From assembly GCF_000300855.1 (NCBI RefSeq), contig NZ_ALJF01000010.1, forward strand, positions 1 to 64,000: a stretch of 64,000 nt of DNA, read 5' to 3'. Source of the DNA: Agrobacterium albertimagni AOL15 (lineage in GTDB: Bacteria > Pseudomonadota > Alphaproteobacteria > Rhizobiales > Rhizobiaceae). Of this stretch, positions 11,844 to 27,800 are shown in pieces. The translations under genes were made by a program, and so were the position numbers. The notes beneath the pieces are model-generated. The model did not search any database and was not told the origin of the DNA. It was given only the letters and a program-made list of their open reading frames with translations. Every line of letters begins with the position of its first letter. Position 1 is the first letter of the stretch.

Positions 11844-11927
11844 GGCATGATGCCGAACGTCCGTGACCGGTAAGTTTTTCAGTCCGGTATGTCCCCTCTT
11901 GTATCTCGTTTTTAAGGGACAAATCCT
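11844..11927 (+). promoter_or_regulatory. flaA leader with two stem-loops over the ribosome binding site
   Basis: The leader starts with GGCATGATGCC (11844-11854). Stem 1 pairs ACCGG (11866-11870) with CCGGT (11884-11888). Stem 2 pairs TGTCCC (11890-11895) with GGGACA (11916-11921), which contains the AAGGGA ribosome binding site 8 bases before the ATG. The same layout precedes the next two flagellin genes. A GTTAACC lies further upstream at 11680-11686. Structure is inferred from pairing alone. Confidence 0.6.
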
Positions 11928-12836
11928 ATGGCCAGCATTCTGACCAACTCCAGCGCGATGTCCGCGCTTTCTACCCTGCGCTCGATCGCTTCCAGCATGG
12001 AATCGACGCAGAACTCCATCTCGACCGGCATGAAGGTCTCCAAGGCCTCTGACAACGCTGCTTACTGGTCGATCTCCACCACCATGAAGTCCGACAACAT
12101 GGCGTTGAGCGCCGTAACGGATGCTCTCGGCGTTGGCGCTGCCAAGGTTGACACCGCTTACGCAGGTATGGAGTCGGCTATTGATGTCGTGAAGGAGATC
12201 AAGGCCAAGTTGGTGGCTGCCCAGGAGCAGGGCGTCGATAAAGAAAAGATCCAGGAAGAGATTACTCAGCTTCAGGAACAGCTTCTTTCGGTAGCCGAGT
12301 CAGCGGCCTTCAATGGTCAGAACTGGCTCGCCAATGAAGATGGCACCGAAGTAAGCGTTATCACGGGCTTCGTACGCGCTTCCGACAACACTGTTTCGGT
12401 CAAGTCCACCACGGTGACCCTTGACGACACCAACATGCTGTTCCAGACCGCTGCGGATGGGACTATCACCGCAACCACCGGCATCCTTGGCACAGCAGGT
12501 ACCGCAAGTACCCAGAGCGTATACGCCTTCACGATCGACAACGACACCGATGCGACTGCGCTTGGCAACCTGCTGACTGACGTCGAAACCGCTCTGACGT
12601 CGATGACCAGCGCTGCGGCAAAGCTCGGCTCGATTTCTTCGCGTATCGAACTGCAGACCGACTTTTCGCAGAAGCTGTCTGACGCCATCGAAAAGGGCGT
12701 TGGTCGTCTCATCGACGCTGACATGAACGAAGAGTCGACTCGCCTCAAGGCCCTGCAGACCCAGCAGCAGCTGGCCATCCAGGCGCTCTCGATCGCCAAC
12801 AGCGACTCGCAGAACATCCTGTCGCTCTTCCGTTAA
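11928..12836 (+). CDS. flaA: Flagellin FlaA
   Basis: This is the main flagellin by position; rhizobial complex filaments need FlaA plus at least one secondary flagellin. The 302-residue protein has the D0/D1 N-terminal domain (MASILTNSSAMSALSTLRSI, SDNAAYWSISTTMKSDN), a short variable centre at about 135-200, and the C-terminal domain ending NSDSQNILSLFR. It is the most divergent of the four flagellins here: it has TQNSISTGMKVSKASDN where the other three have RVSSGxRV. It has its own leader and a terminator at 12967-12996, so it is probably monocistronic and strongly expressed. Confidence 0.93.
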   Translation: MASILTNSSAMSALSTLRSIASSMESTQNSISTGMKVSKASDNAAYWSISTTMKSDNMALSAVTDALGVGAAKVDTAYAGMESAIDVVKEIKAKLVAAQEQGVDKEKIQEEITQLQEQLLSVAESAAFNGQNWLANEDGTEVSVITGFVRASDNTVSVKSTTVTLDDTNMLFQTAADGTITATTGILGTAGTASTQSVYAFTIDNDTDATALGNLLTDVETALTSMTSAAAKLGSISSRIELQTDFSQKLSDAIEKGVGRLIDADMNEESTRLKALQTQQQLAIQALSIANSDSQNILSLFR

Positions 12837-12966
12837 TCGCACGATCAAGTCGGCCCGTGAGGGCCGGCTAGACGATCCCGACGCCATTATGCCTTGGTGG
12901 CTGACCAGAGGCGCGCGAAGGGAAGGCTTAACCCTCCGGAGGCTGAACCGGATCGGAAGCTACACG

Positions 12967-12996
12967 AAGGCCGCGTTCGGAAACGAGCGCGGCCTT
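12967..12996 (+). terminator. Terminator after flaA
   Basis: A perfect 9-bp stem AAGGCCGCG/CGCGGCCTT (12967-12975 with 12988-12996) and a 12-base loop is followed by TGCGTTTT. It lies about 130 bases after the flaA stop. Confidence 0.8.
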
Positions 12997-13162
12997 TGCG
13001 TTTTATTAATCATGATCTGCTACGCGCGCGTACGCGCGAAGGTTGCAAAAAAAATCAAAAATCCGCCGATGCATCGGTTCGTTTAGGCCTTCATTAACCT
13101 TGATGGTTTTATCTAAGCTTATCGAAGCGGCGAGCTAACTTATACATTTCAGCCAGTTAGCA

Positions 13163-13238
13163 GGCATGATGCTGTGCGCCGTTACCGGTGAGACCGGAAT
13201 GTCCCTTCTTAGTCAGCCATTCAAGGGGCAATACTACC
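13163..13238 (+). promoter_or_regulatory. Second flagellin leader with conserved stem-loops
   Basis: GGCATGATGC (13163-13172) is followed by stem 1, CCGG (13185-13188) with CCGG (13194-13197), loop TGAGA. Stem 2 pairs TGTCCC (13200-13205) with GGGGCA (13225-13230), using one G-U pair where flaA has A-U. The AAGGGG ribosome binding site is inside stem 2, 10 bases before the ATG. Confidence 0.58.
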
Positions 13239-14153
13239 ATGACGAGCATTCTTACCAATATCGCCGCAATGTCGGCACTCCAGACGCTGCGCACGATCGG
13301 CAGCAGCATGGAAGACACCCAGGGCCGCGTTTCCTCCGGCCTGCGCGTCGGCGAAGCTTCCGACAACGCTGCTTATTGGTCGATCGCCACCACCATGCGC
13401 TCCGACAACATGGCCCTCTCTGCCGTCTCTGACGCTCTGGGCCTGGGCGCTTCGAAGGTCGATACCGCCTATGCCGGTATGGAGTCCGCCATCGAAGTCG
13501 TGAAGGAAATCAAGGCAAAGCTGGTCACCGCAACCGAAGAAGGCGTTGACAAGAACAAGGTTCAGGAAGAGATCACCCAGCTCCAGGCGCAGCTGATGTC
13601 GATTGCCGAATCCGCGTCCTTCTCGGGCGAAAACTGGATCGCTGGTGACGCCGCAGACGTGACCGTCGTTTCGGGCTTCGTACGCGACGCTAACAATGCC
13701 GTATCCGTCAAAACGACGACATATTCCCTGACGGATACTGCTGACGGTACGCTGCTGTTCGGCGGTGACGGTGCCGGCGGCATCAATCAGGCGACTGGCA
13801 TCCTTGGGACTTCGGGCGGTGCGACCATCGGCGTCTCCGTATACGAACTCAACATCTCCACCTTTGAAGGTGCAGAGATGGCAGAGGCCCTGACCCTGGT
13901 TGATGAAGCCCTGGCCGCAATGACCAGCGCTGGTGCTGAACTCGGTTCGATTTCCATGCGCATCGAACTGCAGGAAGATTTCGCCAACAAGCTGTCTGAC
14001 TCGCTCGACTCCGGTATCGGCCGCCTCGTTGACGCCGACATGAACGAAGAATCGACCCGCCTCAAGGCACTGCAGACTCAGCAGCAGCTGGCAGTCCAGT
14101 CGCTCTCGATCGCCAATTCTTCTTCGGAAGTCATCCTCTCGCTCTTCCGTTAA
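13239..14153 (+). CDS. flaB: Flagellin (second of four, FlaB-like)
   Basis: A secondary filament subunit. The 304-residue protein starts MTSILTNIAAMSALQTLRTI, has the RVSSGLRVGEASDNAAYW motif, a variable centre (about 140-215), and ends NSSSEVILSLFR. The ATG at 13239 gives the flagellin N-terminus exactly; the reading frame is open 17 codons further upstream but that part lies in the leader. It has its own leader and terminator. The flaB name follows order (flaA then flaB in rhizobia); I cannot prove orthology among these paralogues. Confidence 0.92.
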   Translation: MTSILTNIAAMSALQTLRTIGSSMEDTQGRVSSGLRVGEASDNAAYWSIATTMRSDNMALSAVSDALGLGASKVDTAYAGMESAIEVVKEIKAKLVTATEEGVDKNKVQEEITQLQAQLMSIAESASFSGENWIAGDAADVTVVSGFVRDANNAVSVKTTTYSLTDTADGTLLFGGDGAGGINQATGILGTSGGATIGVSVYELNISTFEGAEMAEALTLVDEALAAMTSAGAELGSISMRIELQEDFANKLSDSLDSGIGRLVDADMNEESTRLKALQTQQQLAVQSLSIANSSSEVILSLFR

Positions 14154-14174
14154 GACTGAAGAGATCCAGCATCG

Positions 14175-14199
14175 AAGCCGCCCTCCGGGGCGGCTTTTT
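14175..14199 (+). terminator. Terminator after the second flagellin gene
   Basis: A 9-bp stem AAGCCGCCC/GGGCGGCTT (14175-14183 with 14188-14196), loop TCCG, runs into TTTTT. It lies 21 bases after the stop codon and is a textbook intrinsic terminator. Confidence 0.92.
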
Positions 14200-14303
14200 G
14201 CGTTTTAACGAATTTATCAGATCTCTTTAACCATGCGTTAACCATACAGTCGTTAGATGAGCTCATGTAACGATGAGTTAACCAAGACGAAGAACTGGTT
14301 AAC

Positions 14304-14376
14304 GGCATTAGGCCAGATCATCGTTCCCGGACAAGACCGGGATGTCCCCAAATCTAGCCATTTAAGGGACACGACC
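14304..14376 (+). promoter_or_regulatory. Third flagellin leader with conserved stem-loops
   Basis: GGCATTAGGCC (14304-14314) precedes stem 1, TCCCGG (14325-14330) with CCGGGA (14337-14342), where the fifth pair is C-G and not A-T as in flaA. Stem 2 pairs TGTCCC (14343-14348) with GGGACA (14366-14371) and covers AAGGGA, 7 bases before the GTG start. Four TTAAC motifs lie upstream (14227-14303). Confidence 0.6.
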
Positions 14377-15375
14377 GTGACCAGCATTTTGACGAACAAC
14401 GCAGCGATGGCTGCACTCCAGACTCTCCGCTCGATCGACTCGAAGATGCAGGACACCCAGGCGCGTGTGTCCTCCGGTCTGCGTGTCGGAGGAGCTTCCG
14501 ACAACGCCGCCTATTGGTCGATCGCAACCACGATGCGCTCCGACAACATGGCTCTTTCAGCCGTCCAGGACGCCCTCGGCCTCGGCGCTGCAAAAATCGA
14601 TACCGCCTACGCCGCGATGGAAAGCTCCATCGAGGTGATGAAGGAAATCAAGGCAAAGGTTGTTGCCGCCACTGAACAGGGCGTCGACAAGACCAAGATC
14701 CAGGAAGAGATCGACCAGCTGCAGGAACAGCTTCGTTCGATCTCGGAATCGGCGAGCTTCAGCGGCCAGAACTGGGTCGCAACCGGCAATGACACGGTGA
14801 CTGCCCCCGTCGAAGTGACGGTTGTCTCCGGTTTCATTCGTGACTCAAACGGTAATGTTTCGGTATCAACGACGCTCTATTCTCTCGATGCGACGACGCC
14901 CGATGGCATGACCGTGCTGTACGGCGGCGATGCGAACGGTCTGATCGACTACAACTCCGGCATCATCGGCAGTGTGTCCGACACCTTCGATGCCTTTGTT
15001 GACTGGGACAATGACGGCGCAGTCGGGGCACCAGCCGCCGAAATCGCCGGCGTTTCCATCGATCAGCTGGACATTACCGGCTTGACCACCCCCGGCATGC
15101 AGGAAGCCCTCTCGCTCGTCGAGTACGGCCTTCAGCAGATGACCAGTGCGGCCGCCGCTCTCGGCTCCATCTCGATGCGCATCGGCATGCAGGAAGACTT
15201 CGTTGCGGCCCTGACCGACTCGATCGACAGCGGTATTGGCCGTCTCGTCGATGCCGATATGAACGAAGAATCGACCCGCCTCAAGGCACTGCAGACCCAG
15301 CAGCAGCTGGCCATCCAGTCGCTCTCGATCGCCAACACCTCTTCCGAGAGCATCCTGACACTCTTCCGTCAGTAA
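14377..15375 (+). CDS. Flagellin (third of four)
   Basis: A secondary flagellin of 332 residues that starts with GTG. The N-terminus is (V/M)TSILTNNAAMAALQTLRSI with RVSSGLRVGGASDNAAYW. The centre (about 145-245) is longer than in its neighbours and contains an acidic, calcium-site-like DWDNDGAV stretch. The C-terminus ends NTSSESILTLFRQ. The GTG start is supported by AAGGGA 7 bases upstream and by alignment with the other flagellins; upstream codons in frame belong to the leader. In order this matches flaD of Sinorhizobium or flaC of Agrobacterium, so I leave the symbol open. Confidence 0.92.
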   Translation: MTSILTNNAAMAALQTLRSIDSKMQDTQARVSSGLRVGGASDNAAYWSIATTMRSDNMALSAVQDALGLGAAKIDTAYAAMESSIEVMKEIKAKVVAATEQGVDKTKIQEEIDQLQEQLRSISESASFSGQNWVATGNDTVTAPVEVTVVSGFIRDSNGNVSVSTTLYSLDATTPDGMTVLYGGDANGLIDYNSGIIGSVSDTFDAFVDWDNDGAVGAPAAEIAGVSIDQLDITGLTTPGMQEALSLVEYGLQQMTSAAAALGSISMRIGMQEDFVAALTDSIDSGIGRLVDADMNEESTRLKALQTQQQLAIQSLSIANTSSESILTLFRQ

Positions 15376-15436
15376 GCGGCGCTCTGGCTAGGGGCGACTT
15401 CGTCCCGCCCTGACAGTGTCGGATGTTATCGGTGTG

Positions 15437-15467
15437 AATCCGCGCCTCGCAAGAGGCGCGGATTTTC
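15437..15467 (+). terminator. Terminator after the third flagellin gene
   Basis: A 12-bp perfect stem AATCCGCGCCTC/GAGGCGCGGATT (15437-15448 with 15453-15464) is closed by a GCAA tetraloop and followed by TTC GTTT. It lies about 60 bases after the stop. Confidence 0.9.
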
Positions 15468-15611
15468 GTTTGAGCCTTGCGCGAAACTTTTGGCATTTTC
15501 GTTTGGACGACAAAAGACAAGCCGGTGCCTTGCCATGTCCTTGGTCTGTTTGTTAACTGCCACTATTAACGATTTGTTAACAGTGACGGGGACCGCGCCT
15601 ATGCGCGTTCT

Positions 15612-15680
15612 GCATGATGCCCTCCCGTCTTGCCGGCGAGCCGCCGGATGCGCAGTCCTTTACGCTTAGGGGCACCAAGC
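15612..15680 (+). promoter_or_regulatory. Fourth flagellin leader, weaker form of the conserved element
   Basis: GCATGATGCC (15612-15621) and stem 1, CCGG (15633-15636) with CCGG (15644-15647), are kept. Stem 2 is degraded: only GTCC against GGGC can form near the AGGGG ribosome binding site (15668-15672). The ATG follows after 8 bases. Confidence 0.5.
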
Positions 15681-16640
15681 ATGACCAGTATTATGACCAA
15701 TGCGGCCGCCATGGCGGCGCTGCAGACACTTCGTTCGATCGACAACAATCTCGAGATGACCCAGCGGCGGGTCTCGTCGGGTTACCGGGTCGAAACGGCA
15801 GCCGACAATGCCGGCTATTGGTCCATTGCCACGACGATGCGCTCCGATAATGCTGCGCTCTCGACAGTTTCCGACGCACTCGGCCTCGGTGCGGCAACCG
15901 TTGATACCGCTTACACGGCGCTCGACAATGTCGTTGACGTGATGTCCACGATCAAGGCGAAGCTGGTTGCCGCCCGCGAACCGGGCGTCGACAAGAACAA
16001 GATCAACGAGGAAATGACGCAGCTGAAAAACCAGCTGATTTCCTCGGCCCAGTCCGCATCCTTCTCGGGTGAAAACTGGCTTTACAACACCAATGCGCTG
16101 GAGCTCGGCACCAAGCAGGTTGTTTCCTCCTTCGTCCGCGGAGCAGACGGCAGCGTTCAGGTCACGACCCTCGACTTCGACACCGCTGAATCCGTGCTGA
16201 TCGACACCCAGGATGCGTCTCGCGGCTTTCTCACCAAGTCGATTGATGCCGATGCCCTGCGCAACACCGGCACCGGCACGCGCGAATATTACCTCCTAGA
16301 CATGGGAGGGCCGACGGGCGGCGACGAGATCGCGATAGAGACCGACACTCCCGATGATGTAATCGACGACATGATTGCTGTCGTTGACAACGTCATCCAG
16401 CAGCTGACCGACGCCGCCGCCACCCTCGGCGCGATCACCAGCCGCATCGAGATGCAGGACAACTTCGTCTCGAACCTCATGGACGTGATCGACAAGGGCA
16501 TTGGGCGTCTGGTCGATGCCGACATGAACGAGGAATCGACGCGTCTGAAGGCGCTGCAGACCCAGCAGCAGCTCGGCATCCAGGCACTCTCGATAGCCAA
16601 CAGCAGCGCCGAAAAGCTTCTCACGCTCTTCCAGCGATAA
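15681..16640 (+). CDS. Flagellin (fourth of four)
   Basis: A secondary flagellin of 319 residues. It begins MTSIMTNAAAMAALQTLRSI and has RVSSGYRVETAADNAGYW, so it departs from the usual SDNAAYW. The middle region (about 145-235) is unlike the others, and the C-terminus ends NSSAEKLLTLFQR. The ATG at 15681 gives the canonical N-terminus with AGGGG upstream. No strong terminator follows; only a 6-bp inverted repeat ACGCCG/CGGCGT at 16649-16674 is seen. Symbol left open because paralogue naming differs between genera. Confidence 0.92.
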   Translation: MTSIMTNAAAMAALQTLRSIDNNLEMTQRRVSSGYRVETAADNAGYWSIATTMRSDNAALSTVSDALGLGAATVDTAYTALDNVVDVMSTIKAKLVAAREPGVDKNKINEEMTQLKNQLISSAQSASFSGENWLYNTNALELGTKQVVSSFVRGADGSVQVTTLDFDTAESVLIDTQDASRGFLTKSIDADALRNTGTGTREYYLLDMGGPTGGDEIAIETDTPDDVIDDMIAVVDNVIQQLTDAAATLGAITSRIEMQDNFVSNLMDVIDKGIGRLVDADMNEESTRLKALQTQQQLGIQALSIANSSAEKLLTLFQR

Positions 16641-27006: not shown

Positions 27007-27354
27007 ATGTACCAGTTCTCATATGCCGAGATTATGGAAGATGGCGTCGCTGACGCCAAGGAGCGCGAACGGCAGGCCCTTGACCGTTGCATCCAGCTTC
27101 TGAGCGCGGCCCGTGAAAAAAAGGGCTACTCCCGCGAGGCGATCGAAGCTCTGTTTTATACCCGCCGGGTCTGGATCCGACTGATCGAAGATCTGCAGAA
27201 CCCCGAGAACCAGCTCGGCGACGAAGTACGCGCCAATCTGATTTCCATCGCCATCTGGATTTTGAAAGAGTGTGACCGGATCCGCAAGCGAGAGTCCGAG
27301 AACTTCCAGGGCATCATCGACGTGACAACCATCATCAGGGATGGACTTAAATGA
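27007..27354 (+). CDS. flaF: Flagellin biosynthesis regulator FlaF
   Basis: FlaF is a small cytoplasmic regulator that promotes flagellin synthesis or secretion, working against FlbT in alphaproteobacteria. The 115-residue protein is all-helical, begins [19 protein letters not shown], and carries the family segment [18 protein letters not shown] followed by [18 protein letters not shown]. The length is typical. The stop overlaps flbT by four bases, so the two opposing regulators are translationally coupled. Confidence 0.94.
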
Positions 27355-27800
27355 AGAGCACTTTGCGCATCTCGCTCAAGTCGGGCGAACGTATTTTCAT
27401 CAATGGAGCGGTTCTGCGCGTCGACCGCAAGGTTGCCCTCGAGTTCCTGAACGATGTCACCTTCCTGCTCGAGAACCATGTTCTGCAGCCGGAACAGGCG
27501 ACGACGCCGTTGCGTCAGCTCTACTTCATCGCCCAGATGATGCTGATCAATCCGGAAGGCAAGGATCAGTCGCTCGCGATGTTCCGCAAGTCGGTGATCA
27601 TGCTGCTGTCCTGCTTCGAGAACGAGGAGATCCTCGCAGAACTGAAGCGCATCGACGGCATGGTTTCCTCTGGTCGCGCTTTCGACGCCTTGAAGGCGAT
27701 CCGCCAGCTCTATCCGATCGAGGACCGCATCCTGAATAACCAGGAAATGGCGCCGGCGACGATCGAGCAGATCCGCAAGGAGATCGCACCATGGCGGTAG
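27351..27800 (+). CDS. flbT: Flagellin mRNA-binding repressor FlbT
   Basis: In Caulobacter FlbT binds the 5' leader of flagellin mRNA and links its decay to hook completion. The 149-residue protein has the conserved start [20 protein letters not shown], a central [23 protein letters not shown]-type region, and a C-terminal helical part ([17 protein letters not shown]). The four flagellin leaders in this window carry conserved stem-loops that would be natural targets. The last 10 bases overlap flgD. Confidence 0.94.

Follow-up and report, generated by a model that had tools for sequence, protein, structure and literature searches.

In the stretch of DNA analysed here (the window), the first 64,000 nucleotides (nt) of contig NZ_ALJF01000010.1 of Agrobacterium albertimagni AOL15, four flagellin genes stand in one row (11928-16640), and the first three of them are preceded by a conserved leader in which two hairpins follow each other, the second taking in the Shine-Dalgarno sequence (SD). 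The explanation we prefer, which we hold to be evenly poised between right and wrong, is that the mRNAs of lateral-type flagellins carry this two-hairpin leader and that it lowers initiation until an FlbT protein of one particular clade (clade A) binds and opens hairpin 2. By this mechanism the SD would pair with an upstream arm in hairpin 2 and initiation would be low; hairpin 1, directly 5' of hairpin 2, would serve for recognition or for folding; the clade A FlbT from the same gene cluster would bind the leader and open hairpin 2; and bulk flagellin would be made only once FlbT is available. The paired-hairpin leader is a concrete candidate for a switch that times filament production. This RNA, which is short, conserved and mutable, is defined both for model rhizobia and for lateral flagellar systems, its natural compensatory variants can guide mutagenesis, and the timing of flagellin synthesis would become directly testable.

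Architecture of the flagellin leaders

All features described in the window lie on the + strand. The genes are fla1 (11928..12836, ATG start, with a Flagellin_N match), fla2 (13239..14153, ATG start at 13239), fla3 (14377..15375, GTG start at 14377) and fla4 (15681..16640, ATG start at 15681). Before fla1, fla2 and fla3 the elements come in the same order, namely a box, hairpin 1 with a CCGG/CCGG core, an AUG, hairpin 2 and the start codon. Hairpin 2 is formed by UGUCCC paired with GGGACA or GGGGCA, the downstream arm holding the G-run of the SD, and it ends 5-8 bases short of the start codon. The U and G of the leader AUG are already part of it. Taken in this order, CCGG-N-CCGG-N-ATGTCCC has three occurrences in the window, one at each of these genes, against 0.01 expected.

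At fla1 the box GGCATGATGC (11844..11853), which is probably promoter or activator DNA, is followed by hairpin 1 (11866..11888), with ACCGG (11866-11870) against CCGGT (11884-11888), and by hairpin 2 (11890..11921), with TGTCCC (11890-11895) against GGGACA (11916-11921), which overlaps the SD AAGGG and has a folding energy of -7.4 kcal/mol on its own. The same box, GGCATGATGC, precedes fla2 (13163..13172), where hairpin 1 (13185..13197) pairs CCGGT (13185-13189) with ACCGG (13193-13197), and hairpin 2 (13200..13230) pairs TGTCCCTT (13200-13207) with AAGGGGCA (13223-13230) at -9.2 kcal/mol and encloses the entire SD AAGGGG. In the fla3 leader a box-like GGCATTAGGC (14304..14313) stands before hairpin 1 (14325..14342; TCCCGG, 14325-14330, with CCGGGA, 14337-14342) and hairpin 2 (14343..14371; TGTCCC, 14343-14348, with GGGACA, 14366-14371; -8.0 kcal/mol). 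The covariance model described below matches these leaders at 11862-11921, 13180-13230 and 14322-14371. The fla4 leader keeps the box (TGCATGATGC, 15611..15620) and, judged by folding, hairpin 1 (CCGGCG/CGCCGG, 15633..15647); the conserved place of hairpin 2 is empty, and the model has no match here.

Two positions have changed with pairing preserved. The outer pair of hairpin 1 is A-U in fla1 and C-G in fla3, and a pair of hairpin 2 that is U-A in fla1 and fla3 is U-G in fla2. An earlier note, made from the sequence of the window alone, had described the box and CCGG/CCGG stem at all four genes, the SD-covering stem at the first three and these pairing-preserving changes, and had held that the fourth gene had mostly escaped the element. 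Sequence, folds and model bear out this layout, the changes are present in both stems, and fla4 is indeed largely devoid of hairpin 2.

Minimum-energy folds contain both hairpins in fla1, fla2 and fla3, hairpin 1 being folded in a shifted form when the fla1 leader is trimmed. The CCGGCG/CGCCGG stem of fla4 is seen in the trimmed leader and in isolation and is absent from the longer fold, and a shifted GUCCUU/AGGGGC helix forms in both the longer and the trimmed fold. As the SD lies within a hairpin, which in fla2 includes a U-G pair, the leader might recall an RNA thermometer. This candidate was rejected, as the predicted exposure of the SD is nearly constant from 15 to 42 C (the largest shift, in fla3, is from 0.27 to 0.43); we regard the chance that the flagellins are under such a thermometer as very nearly negligible.

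The AUG after hairpin 1 (11889-11891, 13199-13201 and 14342-14344 in the window) is invariant in an alignment of 34 rows (A4), and it may be common to an extension of hairpin 1 and to hairpin 2. An upstream reading frame starting from the invariant AUG of CCGG-N-AUG was considered and dropped: the frames vary (39/20/17), and a stop codon lies within the leader in only 22 of 76. Extension of hairpin 1 into the AUG was likewise rejected as a general feature, because the two outermost pairs are present in only 39 and 24 of 99 rows.

Specificity and distribution

Eighty named loci and the window's own genome (G000 in our scans, 5.09 Mb) gave 152 distinct flagellin leaders, five of them from the own genome. 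The best named matches of the window flagellins belong to Rhizobium, Sinorhizobium/Ensifer, Agrobacterium and Shinella. A GCATGA-N-GC box pattern was present in 139 leaders, hairpin 1 plus AUG(U/C)CC in 113 and an SD pattern in 125; 95 had all three and 3 had none. Three leaders were dropped (one on the opposite strand, two without anchors), and the remaining 149 were thinned by similarity to 104. A strict pattern was failed by 28 of the 104, and from the other 76 we hand-picked 34 Rhizobiaceae leaders in good register for a covariance model, R1, whose training set includes the fla1 leader and leaves out those of fla2 and fla3. As CCGG and GGG were required in this selection, the invariance of those pairs in the Rhizobiaceae alignments is uninformative.

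Searched against the whole genome, R1 found only the leaders of fla1, fla2 and fla3 at an expectation value (E) below 0.1 (6e-12, 9e-12 and 8e-8; the next is at 0.23); the fla4 leader and two remote flagellin-like genes were not found. These two unlinked genes (on contigs C13 and C6) have no such leader by eye or by covariance model. In a blind search of 150 genomes of the order, 27 of the 28 matches at E<=1e-3 end just before a Flagellin_N match, and outside the training family 21 of 22 lie at flagellins, the exception being G071:C85. Loosening the threshold to E<=0.1 gave matches in 58 of the 150 genomes, with much noise included. A refined model, R2, was built from 101 hits, many of them blind matches of R1 and one of them not at a flagellin; on the same 150 genomes it gave 35 matches at E<=1e-3 in 19 genomes, 34 of them at flagellins and the odd one at G120:C1:1982120-1982168. 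Among the R2 matches between 1e-3 and 0.01, at least two (both in G170) coincide with a listed flagellin place.

Extending the search to 397 genomes of the order gave 79 with a match at E<=1e-3. Of 61 loci then inspected (L281-L341), nearly all from new genomes, 58 have a flagellin start directly after the match, and three (L335-L337, E 4.4e-4 to 9.6e-4) do not. In an alignment of 116 matches (A6), 114 end 3-15 nt upstream of a flagellin start. A scan of 385 genomes drawn from the class with a refined model yielded no real match outside the order, only two members of the order and one chance match, which lies inside a 545-aa reading frame (G631). The order-wide matches stand at flagellins and the class-wide scan holds no real outsiders, and for these reasons the sequence comparison marks the element as a property of the flagellins of this order. 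A covariance model of rhizobial flagellin leaders, which the earlier note had proposed, has proved specific for such leaders and recovers those of fla1 to fla3. An SD-sequestering leader would also be expected to recur upstream of a single gene type across many genomes, as this element does.

The unlinked gene on C13 (at G000:C13:20313-23717, L005), the fifth flagellin-like gene of the genome, has an open frame of 590 aa and is without the leader.

Covariation

In A6 (113 of its 116 hits being distinct), 6 of the 13 pairs are changed on both sides, with 40 cells against 13.6+-4.0 in shuffled alignments, none of 500 being as high; the alignment was fitted to the structure and is biased towards it, and relatedness is disregarded in the shuffles. 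At its outer pair hairpin 1 has A-U, G-U, G-C, C-G and U-A. An alignment-free test, in which the upstream arm was chosen blind to the SD and paired with all SD regions, started from 373 distinct leaders, of which 307 have the box, 248 have an arm and 157 were left after thinning. Arms of hairpin 2 pair with their own SD at -9.92 kcal/mol compared with -9.01+-0.12 kcal/mol for permuted partners (z -7.9, 0 of 10000 permutations), relatedness not being controlled. UGUCCC arms fit the SDs of the UGUCCU class even better than their own. UGUCUU arms accompany GGAAAGAC SDs, which points to coevolution within hairpin 2; the clearest case is genus g61 of family f18, where many leaders combine the SD GGAAAGAC with a GUCUUUC or GUCUUUU arm, and where hairpin 1 is changed to variants such as GCCGA/UCGGC.

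A first alignment-free test, restricted to Rhizobiaceae (104 leaders), yielded z -4.3 for hairpin 1 and only -2.0 for hairpin 2 (130 of 5000). RNAalifold found no structure in a plain MAFFT alignment (A2), in our reading because the SD arm is misregistered there by one base. Outside Rhizobiaceae, 55 of the 84 hairpin-1 loops have seven bases, and N-GNRA-NN occurs in 40 of these 55 against 2.6 expected, or in only 14 of 28 distinct loops; in Rhizobiaceae it occurs in none of 45, the two groups having been separated by a hand-made list of loci. The SD-pairing helix is therefore conserved and covaries across genomes, both in A6 and in the alignment-free test, and the earlier note's view of a real RNA element that covers the SD in three genes, which an absence of covariation would have undermined, has gained support. 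We regard the leader as a new RNA family and, by its type, as a candidate SD-sequestering mRNA leader.

The box

The box by itself was rejected as a specific motif since it is too common. With at most one mismatch it has 23 places in the window, where 8.6 are expected and none of 100 shuffles reaches that number, and exact GGCATGANGC occurs 156 times in the genome, compared with 8 for the pattern read backwards. Its distance to hairpin 1 is 21-22 nt in 157 of 166 Rhizobiaceae leaders and in 77 of 81 others. Elsewhere in the genome, at G000:C9:63745-63769 on the - strand (L094), the gene of a globin-coupled chemoreceptor (Pfam MCPsignal and Protoglobin) has upstream of it a box GGCATGACGC, then CCGT and a stem of ACCGG with CCGGT, but no SD hairpin. 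This suggests that box and hairpin 1 form a wider class III 5' module. Its fixed spacing and its presence upstream of the chemoreceptor gene make the box resemble promoter DNA rather than a segment of the RNA, and, as it recurs there together with a stem like hairpin 1, it is likely to be shared class III promoter DNA. The constant spacing fits a promoter whose transcript starts just before hairpin 1.

It could be argued further that the conserved stretch is mainly promoter or operator DNA and that the hairpins are incidental. The box keeps its 21-22 nt to a CCGG that is itself palindromic, and CtrA motifs have been described upstream of flaA, flaC and flaD of S. meliloti (PMC3616915). However, compensatory changes, GNRA loops, varying loop lengths and a near-fixed distance to the start codon are features of RNA, and we consider this explanation highly unlikely.

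At three further loci (L281, L282 and L283, the third start in each) a flagellin-like gene has the box and a hairpin-1-like stem without hairpin 2, much like fla4; the gene in L282 has a Flagellin_N match.

FlbT and the proposed direction of regulation

The window encodes its own FlbT. flaF (27007..27354, Pfam PF07309, E 2.7e-34) and flbT (27351..27800, Pfam PF07378, E 8.1e-43; clade A, the Rhizobiaceae or lateral type, by the tree described below) lie about 10-15 kb from the flagellin genes, so that FlbT and the leader are found in one genome, as expected of an FlbT-bound leader. Together with flgE, flgK, flgL and flgD they stand some kb downstream of the flagellin row; gene names other than flaF, flbT and flagellin were assigned by reading of the sequences.

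FlbT is present in 100 of the 150 genomes and flagellin in 111. All 19 genomes bearing the element have FlbT, and none of the 50 FlbT-less genomes has the element, yet only 13 of these have a flagellin match, so that the contrast (19/98 vs 0/13) is weak when taken alone. A tree of 72 FlbT proteins, hand-chosen from 109 matches (G142 and G173, which were left out, carry the element), divides, at a branch supported by 100/100, into 26 proteins of clade A and 46 of clade B, both on long branches according to a warning of the tree program. The model finds the element in 17 of the 26 clade A rows. Another seven are diverged and were judged by eye: G135 and G099 have both hairpins, G139 is weak (E 0.0025), and G071, G104, G140 and G171 have hairpin 1 only; G057 (leader partly fetched) and G155 (contig without flagellin) stand outside the judged set. 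The model finds the element in none of the 46 clade B rows, and by eye it is absent from every clade B leader read; these leaders, from 17 of 18 fetched loci (21 starts, one or more being internal), mostly have a plain AGGAG-like SD. Where a genome has one FlbT of each clade (G070, G154, G178 and G184), the element goes with the clade A system, about 12-13 kb from that FlbT. The clades agree with the distinction made in the literature between lateral (Rhizobiaceae-type) flagella and subpolar ones (PMC6406911). A single-sequence structure model of FlbT (mean predicted local distance difference test score, pLDDT, 70.6) gave no fold match in the PDB at E<=0.001. The FlbT of Caulobacter presumably resembles clade B. 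The two clades are set apart by the element, and they may act in opposite directions.

In Caulobacter crescentus FlbT binds the 5' untranslated region (UTR) of flagellin mRNA and promotes its decay (Anderson and Gober, 2000, via PMC4347634), and translational repression by FlbT-FljJ has been described (PMC7591256). For the fliC leader of Brucella melitensis, the proposal is instead that FlbT binds the 5' UTR and acts as an activator (Ferooz, 2011, via PMC4347634 and PMC9812332). Both leaders, which resemble ours in belonging to flagellin mRNAs with FlbT as a likely partner, are known here by description alone. Brucella flagellin is described as requiring FlbT but neither hook nor basal body completion (PMC8781033), FlbT translationally induces the lateral flagellins of Bradyrhizobium (PMC8429497), and a screen for genes needed in A. 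fabrum motility picked up flbT (PMC9812332). A review leaves the FlbT binding motif blank and the mechanism unresolved (PMC4347634), and according to another source no flagellum-specific sigma factor was known in the class (PMC12826043).

The earlier note had taken the leader for the FlbT target that ties flagellin synthesis to hook completion, on the precedent of Caulobacter; in such a model FlbT would repress through the leader and release the mRNA once the hook is complete. A link to FlbT is supported, indirectly, by the clade A association and by the nearby flaF and flbT. The repressive direction has its precedent in the decay promoted by Caulobacter FlbT (PMC4347634), but within the order FlbT is described as an activator or was found in a motility screen (PMC4347634, PMC9812332, PMC8429497, PMC8781033), and the window's FlbT clade is parted from the other clade of the order by the 100/100 branch; repression through the leader is in our view unlikely. 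An SD hidden by default, with FlbT as its opener, would be more consistent with what is described for this order than repression by FlbT.

A rather doubtful possibility is that the hairpins constitutively set flagellin translation or mRNA lifetime without a dedicated regulator, or that some other protein or a small RNA acts on the leader. A 5' hairpin could guard against decay, and with the box as promoter DNA hairpin 1 would lie close to the 5' end; the SD is partly hidden; box and hairpin-1-like stem also precede the chemoreceptor gene, without hairpin 2, and the flagellin-like gene of L281-L283; and the binding of FlbT to the leader is something we infer. Against this, the SD arm coevolves, the element is tied to one FlbT clade, and a pure stabiliser has no need of SD pairing.

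Several results weigh against the opening of hairpin 2 by clade A FlbT, the explanation we prefer. Fold energies of the 104 related leaders are near those of shuffled sequences (mean z -0.5, 4% below -2), and for this reason single-sequence folding energy is a poor argument; the case lies in conservation, specificity and covariation. Predicted SD exposure, 0.23-0.42, is only moderately lower than in 14 control genes (mean 0.52, range 0.34-0.82). In A6 the number of pair types does not exceed that of shuffles (17 vs 16.0; 162 of 500 as high) and 47 of 113 rows do not have the outer pair of hairpin 1, and in the alignment-free test a small UGUUU class shows no preference for its own SDs. Within Rhizobiaceae alone covariation is weak, with two pairs changed on both sides (283 of 500 shuffles as high), although the covariation score is reached in only 1 of 500 shuffles. 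Three genomes with clade A FlbT (G104, G140 and G171; loci L152, L153 and L154) keep hairpin 1 and have no hairpin 2. The association with clade A may be mere inheritance of the whole flagellar system. Finally, lowered initiation, FlbT binding, the activating direction, timing, the transcription start and folding in vivo are all inferred.

A bolder form of our preferred explanation, which we put forward tentatively and think improbable on balance, is an order-wide switch opposite to the Caulobacter model. Clade A FlbT would recognise hairpin 1, whose loop is often of the GNRA type outside Rhizobiaceae, and open the SD hairpin. In families in which hairpin 1 is able to reach into the AUG of AUGUCCC, this extension would compete with the base of hairpin 2 for the same U and G, giving an ON and an OFF fold.

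L152-L154 come from genomes of the family to which the window belongs. There, one flagellin without a strong SD is preceded by GGCATGATGCC and by a hairpin 1 of 8 bp (CAUACCGG/CCGGUAUG). These loci offer a natural test of the role of hairpin 2.

Relation to known RNA elements

At gathering score, the window and 20 related loci contain no Rfam 15 family except one tRNA. The open-access literature yielded no description of such an element, and a partial one in the two primary papers on FlbT is possible. Flagellin mRNA is also under an RNA-binding protein in Campylobacter jejuni, with CsrA-FliW, where CsrA represses through GGA motifs (PMC4894983). The nearest candidate Rhizobiales RNA near flagellar genes is the flg-Rhizobiales RNA motif (RF01736), which differs in having three stem-loops over 141 positions and in lying at the start of a gene of the FlgE/F/G family (flgF-like, in L008); it has no match at gathering score in the window or its genome. 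In L008 (G030) RF01736 matches with 112.8 bits over the start of the flgF-like gene, on a small contig. The motif is absent from the other 35 genomes of the genus that were searched, the window's own included, and the L008 contig may therefore be foreign.

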